Notes under the pieces: model-generated | The model's database searches: none | Told to the model about the DNA's origin: nothing | Seen by the model: the letters and a program-made list of their open reading frames with translations, nothing else | Made by a program: the position numbers and the translations under genes | Shown: one piece after another, positions 19,534-21,350 of the stretch | Position numbering within the stretch: the stretch's first letter is position 1 | Layout: each line of letters begins with the position of its first letter | Assembly (NCBI GenBank): GCA_020201095.1 | Contig: JAIVHM010000150.1 | Coordinates: 1-49,210 of the forward strand | Direction: 5' to 3' | Length of the DNA stretch: 49,210 nucleotides | Origin: Halomonas sp. | Lineage (GTDB): Bacteria; Pseudomonadota; Gammaproteobacteria; Pseudomonadales; Halomonadaceae

Positions 19534-19668
19534 AAAAAAAGAAAGCCGCTCCAGGGGAGCGGCAAAAAGACCGTGACTAGCAATGAGAGGGAGAAACCAT
19601 GACAAGAAAAGGGTAATGAATACCAAATCTGTCGTGGTCTGTGGCGTCTCATCAAACGCCACAGTCAC
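19534..19668 (-). ncRNA. Candidate intergenic small RNA (~125-135 nt)
   Basis: Minus-strand promoter TTGACG (19692-19697)-17 bp-TACATT (19669-19674); 5' stem CTGTGGCGT/ACGCCACAG (19639-19664); unstructured UUUCUCCCUCUC; terminator GCCGCTCC-CCT-GGAGCGGC + TTTCTTTTTTT (19534-19563). Confidence 0.6.
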
Positions 19669-19726
19669 AATGTAATAGTTCTCATTTACTACGTCAACAC
19701 AAATACGAATATTTTTTATTCAGTTT

Positions 19727-20644
19727 TTACCCGCTTGCCCACTGGAGCCAAACCGGTAGCGTTAGCATCGCCAGTAGCGTCTGACCGGTAATGATCGCTG
19801 CCATCAATTCGGCATCGCCGCCGAGCTGGCGGGCCAGAATATACGCTGACGTCGCCGTCGGCAGTGCGGCAAATAACAGTGCGACGTCGCGGCTCACTGT
19901 ATCCAGGCCAACCAGCCACGCAAGCCCTAGCACCAACGCAGGCATCAGCACCAGCTTGACGCTGTTCGTCGCCAGCACGCCGCGATCAATGCGCAGTAGC
20001 GCTGCCGGGCGCAATGCCACACCCACAGCAACCAGCCCAAGCGGCAAGGCGGCACGGCCTAGTAGATCGACGGTAGCGTAGCTCCAGCCCGGTAGCCCTA
20101 TGCCTGAAAGATTCAGCGCAATGCCCAGCAAACACGCCAGAATCAGCGGGTTTTTGGCCAGTGCCATTGCGCTTTTACCCAGGCTTGCGTGACCCAGCGT
20201 GCCCGCAGCGACAAAGCTTGCCACGCACATGATATTGACCACCGGTACCATCAACGCCACTGCCACGGCGGCGGTGGTGGCACCTGCGCTGCCATGCAAG
20301 GCCGCCGCGCCCGCCACCCCGACGTAGGTATTGAATCGCACGGCGCCTTGAAATACCGACGTAAACGCCGCGGGCGACAGTTTCAGTTGGGTTCTCAAAC
20401 ACCACAACAGCACCCCGAACGCGGCCATCGCGCCGAGTAATACCAAGGCCAATCGGAAAACGGGCACCTGGCTGACATCCGCCGTCGCAAGCGTCGCCAC
20501 CAGCATGGCAGGGAAGAGCACAAAATAGATCAGCCGCTCCATAGGCGGCCAGAATGTATCGCTGGGCCAGCGTTTTACGCCCAGCGCTGCGCCCAGCAAG
20601 ATCAATAGAAACAGGGGGCCAAGGGCACCACTAATGCTTTCCAT
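19727..20644 (-). CDS. AEC (auxin efflux carrier) family transporter
   Basis: 305 aa with ~10 hydrophobic segments; LGPLFLLILLGAALGVKR... RDVALLFAALPTATSAYILARQLGGDAELMAAIITGQTLLAMLTLPVWL. Confidence 0.9.
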   Translation of the reverse strand: MESISGALGPLFLLILLGAALGVKRWPSDTFWPPMERLIYFVLFPAMLVATLATADVSQVPVFRLALVLLGAMAAFGVLLWCLRTQLKLSPAAFTSVFQGAVRFNTYVGVAGAAALHGSAGATTAAVAVALMVPVVNIMCVASFVAAGTLGHASLGKSAMALAKNPLILACLLGIALNLSGIGLPGWSYATVDLLGRAALPLGLVAVGVALRPAALLRIDRGVLATNSVKLVLMPALVLGLAWLVGLDTVSRDVALLFAALPTATSAYILARQLGGDAELMAAIITGQTLLAMLTLPVWLQWASG

Positions 20645-20759
20645 TGGACTTCCTTTTCATTTTGTTGGGCTACACCGTGACAGCCGCGGGTTTACTGTTA
20701 CTATGAAAGTAGTCGCTCAGTCGCCAACGGGGCTGATTCACCGCCTGCAGGGAGATACC

Positions 20760-21350
20760 ATGGCCTACTCCAAATTATGGCTAGGTGTTGGCGTCGCCGC
20801 GCTGGTCGCCGCCGGTGGCATTCTACTTTACAAGGTCACGTTATCTCCCCAAGACGACATGCCAACTGGCGGTGAGATTGCGCTACCGTCCACCCAAGGC
20901 AGTTTTTCGCTGTCTCAGCTTGATGACGATCAGATTGCCCTGCTGTCGTTCGGCTATACGTATTGCCCTGATATATGTCCCATGACGCAGTCAGTCAAGC
21001 GTCAGGCGCTGGCTGAACTTTCGGCATCACAACGCGAACAGGTGGTGCCTGTCATGATTACCGTCGACCCACAGCGCGATACCCTGGAACGGCTTGAAGA
21101 GTATCTGGCCTTTTTTGGCGAGGACTTTATCGGCGCTAGCGGAGACCAGGCCGAACTGGATGAAGTAATGACCCGTTATGGGGTCATTACACGCCGCGTC
21201 GAGGCGCCCGACTCAGCCATCAAGTACACTATCGACCATAGCTCATCACTCTACCTGGTCGATCGTGAAGGCGACATTTTGCAGCGTGTGCTGTATTCGC
21301 CTACGCCTCAAGGGCTTACGGCTGCCTTATCGCATGAGCTGAGTCGTTAG
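20760..21350 (+). CDS. SCO family protein (copper chaperone / cytochrome oxidase assembly-like)
   Basis: LLSFGYTYCPDICPMTQSVKRQAL (CxxxC), ITVDPQRDTLERLEEYL, IDHSSSLYLVDREG. Confidence 0.93.
   Translation: MAYSKLWLGVGVAALVAAGGILLYKVTLSPQDDMPTGGEIALPSTQGSFSLSQLDDDQIALLSFGYTYCPDICPMTQSVKRQALAELSASQREQVVPVMITVDPQRDTLERLEEYLAFFGEDFIGASGDQAELDEVMTRYGVITRRVEAPDSAIKYTIDHSSSLYLVDREGDILQRVLYSPTPQGLTAALSHELSR

Follow-up and report, generated by a model that had tools for sequence, protein, structure and literature searches.

A divergent PrrF-type small RNA gene with a conserved Fur-like operator in Halomonas and its relatives

The window analyzed here is the whole stretch of 49,210 nucleotides of Halomonas sp. 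DNA. On its minus strand lies a gene for an AEC-type transporter (PF03547; 19727 to 20644), a conserved neighbor of the locus under study, which is adjoined by an ordinary plus-strand gene for a SCO1/SenC-type protein (20634 to 21350). Downstream of the AEC gene and on the same strand, every element that the original prediction had named for a small RNA (sRNA) gene was found in its place (19697 to 19534). The promoter lies 30 bp downstream of the AEC stop codon; its -35 box (TTGACG; 19692 to 19697), kept in the orthologues, and its -10 box (TACATT; 19669 to 19674; TATATT in most orthologues) are 17 bp apart. A Fur-box-like operator, AAATGAGAACTATTACATT (19669 to 19687; AAATGAGAATGATTATATT in orthologues), overlaps the -10 box and aligns with the Fur-box part of the PrrF family model of Rfam, RF00444. 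The predicted sRNA, whose start is placed from the -10 box and the PrrF alignment, would comprise about 133 nucleotides (19534 to 19666).

The RNA opens with a 5' hairpin (19639 to 19664; stem CUGUGGCGU/ACGCCACAG, loop UUGAUGAG), in which a 9-bp stem joins CTGTGGCGT (19664 to 19656) with ACGCCACAG (19647 to 19639). A second stem, CCA-C-GACAG/UUGUC-A-UGG (19597 to 19637), encloses a variable insert between its arms CCACGACAG (19637 to 19629) and TTGTCATGG (19605 to 19597). It is followed by a conserved putative target-pairing core, UUUCUCCCUCUCAUUGCUAGUCACGGUCUUUUU (19564 to 19596), which starts with the pyrimidine run TTTCTCCCTCTCA (19596 to 19584) and is homologous to the PrrF core UCUCC...CAU...GCUAAUCACGGU. 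The most conserved part of the whole RNA, GCTAGTCACGG (19581 to 19571), lies within this segment; both it and the second stem had been overlooked in the original prediction. The 3' end is formed by an intrinsic terminator with a U-rich tail, GCCGCUCC-CCU-GGAGCGGC (19534 to 19563), which reads in DNA as GCCGCTCC-CCT-GGAGCGGC (19563 to 19545) followed by TTTCTTTTTTT (19544 to 19534).

Because the promoter pattern (2 found and 0.9 expected in the region) and the terminator pattern (4 found and 3.2 expected) are each near chance frequency by themselves, conservation had to decide whether these elements form a gene. The parts occur in the same order in all retrieved orthologues. An alignment of 33 sequences (A1) shows an almost invariant core and terminator, two stems, and one variable insert, and the covariance model derived from it (R1) matches all 82 congeneric genomes (and all 73 of the good ones), with best E-values of 1e-30 to 1e-10. 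An sRNA gene that has a promoter of its own, a stem at the 5' end, a pyrimidine-rich region left unpaired, and a terminator is thus strongly supported. R1 also matches 30 of 295 genomes drawn from the order, which belong to the genus itself, to further genera of the family, and to further families. A 26-nucleotide core, TCTCCCTCTCATTGCTAGTCACGGTC, occurs without any change in 68 contig stretches from Vreelandella, Halomonas, Billgrantia, or close kin.

Structure is conserved as well. A 135-nucleotide RNA from the window folds at -53.7 kcal/mol, 7.45 standard deviations below shuffled sequences (z, -7.45). In the stems of A1, six pairs are changed on both sides (19 cells), a level reached by none of 500 shuffles; most of this covariation comes from compensatory changes in the 5' hairpin (A-U in 22 and G-C in 11 sequences, and exchanges between C-G and U-A), which stand out more cleanly when pairs are numbered starting at the loop. 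A long-range pairing of GUGACU with AGUCAC, proposed as a means to bring the ends together, is present as complementarity in the window sequence, but it is not conserved as a pairing and shows no compensatory change; the AGUCAC side is invariant because it is part of the PrrF core. A pairing between the hairpin loop and the core (UUURAUGAG:CUCAUU) is preserved in 99.5% of cells but not in most other genera, and it is neither supported nor excluded since both of its sides are nearly invariant. The single-sequence fold of the window RNA hides much of the core. Folding suggests two forms, in that an early 5' hairpin may leave the core free and the complete RNA can rearrange, with its 5' arm covering the core; covariation favors the core-free form, and the core-covered form is a speculation. 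The supposed trans-acting, Hfq-type layout is supported by the conserved single-stranded core, the U-rich terminator tail, and the presence of an hfq gene in the window genome.

Some orthologues depart from the common plan. One of them (L032:1531-1624) has neither the second stem nor the insert and measures 94 nucleotides instead of 119 to 140, while its 5' hairpin, core, and terminator are retained. Five others (L013, L014, L017, L020, and L028) combine 5' hairpin arms of different types, with GTCGGCG or GTTGGCG on one side and ACGCCACAG or ACGCCACGA on the other, as if the arms had been recombined between copies; their outer stem is broken.

A plain Rfam scan of the window at the gathering threshold reports no match, and standard annotation would therefore miss the sRNA. 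With an E-value threshold, the scan gives one significant match, to PrrF (RF00444), at 19697 to 19537 on the minus strand; its 43 bits fall short of the curated gathering score of 90 bits. The match spans model positions 1 to 150 of 150, the -35 and Fur-box part included, and its E-value is 2.3e-5 for a search of 2.3 kb, 7.3e-6 for one of the entire genome, and 2.6e-6 for a narrower one. In the alignment, the Fur box AAAUGAgAAcUAUUAcAUU is set against AAAUGAuAAUuaUUAUuAU and the core GCUAgUCACGGU against GCUAAUCACGGU, and the 5' hairpin and the terminator are aligned too. Two further RF00444 matches in the window genome (21.5 and 15.3 bits) look like chance. At an E-value of 0.1, the family model matched 43 of the 82 genomes of the genus in a search whose strict filters lost some genomes, including that of the window itself, and none of the 14 control genomes; none of the 82 congeners reaches the gathering score. 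Continuity with PrrF is provided by intermediates in other genera and families: the 20 R1 loci scanned score 35 to 84 bits against RF00444, barring one of the weakest, and the R1 loci share the core CTC-TCATC-AGCTA[A/G]TCACGGT behind Fur boxes. Judged by these alignments, the window RNA is a divergent homologue of PrrF that lies outside the curated family by score. As the curated score is missed, we describe it as a divergent PrrF-type RNA and do not file it as a member of that family. The gathering score excludes all PrrF-type RNAs of the Halomonas group together with all other loci of the order that were tested (35 to 84 bits), and a broader RF00444 model, or a clan, would annotate the Halomonas-group and related loci.

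The PrrF kinship and the link to Fur had not been identified in the original prediction, in which the Fur-box-like promoter sequence was missed. Alone, this site is unremarkable: the best 19-mer over the window promoter agrees with the classic Fur consensus at 12 of 19 positions, and 51 sites within the 49-kb window are as good or better. Since the window copy is weak by itself, its weight comes from orthology. A Fur-like sequence, AAATGAGAAnnATTAnnTT, is conserved over the -10 box as a predicted operator, with scores to the classic consensus of 13 to 14 in orthologues and up to 16 in other families. A genome-wide search with the operator motif found one other site only, probably by chance, at the start of a TRAP-transporter gene; hence, the regions upstream of TonB receptor genes were tested. 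In the genus, these genes have sites of the same type, AATGAGAATnATT..CATT, a short way upstream. Eighteen of the 24 best TonB receptor sites fit the motif at 13 or more of 18 positions; the window promoter site fits at 13 of 18, which corresponds to the 99th percentile of background stretches in this test. A fur gene is encoded in the window genome.

Candidate targets were assessed one gene at a time, together with a single pattern search across the genome. The complement of the core, CCGTGANTAGCAA, has one exact non-self match in the genome, at the GTG start and first codons of sdhC, where the sequence complementary to the core is CCGUGAAUAGCAA. About 0.4 exact matches are expected by chance in a genome of this size, and thus it is the place of the match that counts, not the number. 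The match, GCCGUGAAUAGCAA, part of which consists of codons possibly kept for the protein, is retained in all nine congeners examined, one of which has a single change. Outside the family, two genomes with no R1 match (G083 and G084) do not have the sdhC match, whereas one with an R1 match (G082) nearly keeps it, a contrast that is small but fitting. Compared with shuffled cores, sdhC stands out in ungapped complementarity (z, 3.1; P = 0.02) but is no better in duplex energy (z, -0.3). By the same comparison, acnA appears to be the stronger predicted target: its pairing, at the leader (AAGACCGUGAC) and the Shine-Dalgarno sequence (AGAGGAGA), is conserved with a mean energy of -32.0 kcal/mol versus -21.4 kcal/mol for shuffled cores (z, -4.9), and none of 300 shuffled cores was as good. 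The pairing of acnD reaches -30.0 in the window genome and is poor in the one other orthologue tested, and that of leuC is marginal (P = 0.06). sodB is a frequent target of iron-sparing sRNAs; in the duplex test against shuffled cores, no pairing of sodB with the core was found, and it serves as an unpaired contrast. In Pseudomonas aeruginosa, sdhCDAB, acnA, acnB, and m-acnA depend on prrF (PMC2851614).

Among the other explanations, the one that survives best, though we consider it improbable, is that of an Hfq-dependent sRNA under a regulator that does not respond to iron, with a likeness to PrrF that arose by convergence in a short core and a terminator. In its favor are an RF00444 score below the Rfam cutoff and a Fur-like site that is weak alone. 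However, the match covers promoter, 5' hairpin, core, and terminator and is connected to PrrF by graded intermediates of up to 84 bits, Fur-like operators occur at the same place throughout the relatives, and the predicted targets agree with those of PrrF.

It is less probable still that the RNA is only the 3' untranslated region and terminator of the AEC mRNA, the fallback explanation of the original prediction, or an sRNA cut from that 3' end. The two genes share a strand at a short distance, no terminator was seen between them, and most Halomonas-group loci retain the AEC neighborhood, often including trmB at a greater distance. Against this stand the conserved -35 and -10 boxes, which precede the RNA with an overlapping Fur-like operator, and second copies that have their own promoter and are located further away. 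Moreover, some relatives (L110, L115, and L116) and other families (L112, L113, and L117 to L124) carry the RNA without a nearby AEC gene, and the RNA is thus independent of this neighborhood. These observations contradict the fallback.

An RNA that sequesters CsrA/RsmA in the manner of RsmY, RsmZ, or CsrB, which had been offered as an option and is favored by no tool result, is hardly credible: the window RNA has a single GGA, inside the terminator, and no ANGGA, its orthologues have zero to two GGA motifs, and no Rfam match to such a family was obtained. The initial reading of the locus therefore holds for the gene and its Hfq-type layout but not for the CsrA type or the long-range pairing of the ends. 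A small protein gene (GTG frame 19668 to 19429, 79 amino acids) or another coding feature is just as implausible, for although this frame runs uninterrupted across the RNA in the window genome, it contains the intrinsic terminator, the distance from start to core falls in all three phases among orthologues (10, 20, and 3 sequences), and each frame has stops in some of them.

The sRNA is present in multiple copies in about a third of the congeneric genomes, and the arrays fall into two groups. In one group, copies are 237 to 341 bp apart (about 1.3 kb in a few genomes) and mostly have a Fur-like promoter each; in the other, they are 135 to 195 bp apart, with a Fur-like promoter at the first copy only. 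The minus-strand loci L007:1531-2210 and L010:950-1625 contain four and five tandem units, respectively, each separated from the next by a terminator. A scan of that strand of L007 found one promoter with a Fur-like box, at the first of the four units; a weak promoter-like pattern is repeated within later units of L010. In another family of the order, L120:890-2190 contains five PrrF-like copies at a spacing of about 277 bp, each with a Fur-like box (13 to 15 of 19). A rather doubtful but conceivable scheme is that the locus of the Halomonas group is prone to repeats, with 2 to 5 seed-plus-terminator units, some of them promoterless, behind one Fur-controlled promoter; termination would be leaky and give rise to multimeric iron-stress RNAs that vary in length and dose. 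On this view, the window monomer may also alternate between two forms, one with the seed exposed (5' hairpin) and one with the seed hidden by pairing of the 5' arm with the core.

Taken together, we consider it highly probable that the window sRNA is a trans-acting, Fur-repressed, iron-sparing RNA, the Halomonadaceae counterpart of Pseudomonas PrrF. It is very probably switched on in iron shortage, shutting down such iron-consuming enzymes as succinate dehydrogenase and aconitase. When iron is ample, Fe-Fur would occupy the operator over the -10 box and keep the sRNA off; when iron is short, an RNA of about 130 nucleotides, ending at its own intrinsic terminator, would be made. Together with Hfq, its single-stranded core would then bind mRNAs that encode iron-rich enzymes by base pairing around their translation starts: UUGCUAGUCACGG would pair with the GUG start codon of sdhC, and UCUCCCUCU and GUCACGGUCUU with the 5' leader and Shine-Dalgarno sequence of acnA. 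The core segment GCUAGUCACGG is expected to carry the repression of sdhC and acnA, and acnD and leuC are weaker target candidates. Translation of the paired mRNAs would be blocked and the mRNAs exposed to decay, sparing scarce iron.

The Halomonas group serves as an industrial chassis, and naming the sRNA would add a post-transcriptional arm to the iron-starvation regulon of the whole family. Since it matches the start codon of sdhC so closely, it lends itself to a simple test of how an iron-sparing sRNA and its target remain tied over long evolution. A PrrF1 scaffold has been used for synthetic sRNA in the Halomonas group (PMC13101641). Our literature searches, whose coverage left out most subscription journals, found no native PrrF-type RNA of Halomonas.

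RyhB of Enterobacteriaceae, NrrF of Neisseria, and BrrF of Burkholderia do the same job in outline, as iron-controlled, iron-sparing RNAs with sdh and aconitase targets; the Rfam scan revealed no sequence kinship between them and the window RNA, and BrrF lacks its own Fur box (PMC7377471). The prrF genes of P. aeruginosa form a tandem pair, whose read-through product is PrrH (PMC2851614), and among Pseudomonas the tandem arrangement was thought to be nearly confined to this species (PMC4211561). Like the PrrH locus, the loci of some relatives of the window organism consist of copies arranged head to tail with intervening terminators, which indicates that multicopy prrF-type loci are not peculiar to Pseudomonas. 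Unlike it, these arrays have up to five units, of which the later ones can be without promoter and Fur box, and the window organism has one unit. In comparison with PrrF1 and PrrF2 of P. aeruginosa (RF00444, with ArrF of Azotobacter), the window RNA has a different 5' hairpin sequence and loop (UUURAUGAG), a longer pyrimidine run (UCUCCCUCUCAUUGC instead of UCUCCUCAUCAGGC), a single copy, and no detected sodB pairing. It shares with them the Fur-box promoter, the 5' hairpin, the middle stem, the single-stranded core UCUCC...CAU...GCUA-N-UCACGGU, the intrinsic terminator, and a similar length, and sdhC and aconitase are among its predicted targets and among those reported for PrrF (PMC2851614). 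The window RNA is very probably a previously unannotated, divergent member of the known Fur-repressed iron-sparing sRNAs.
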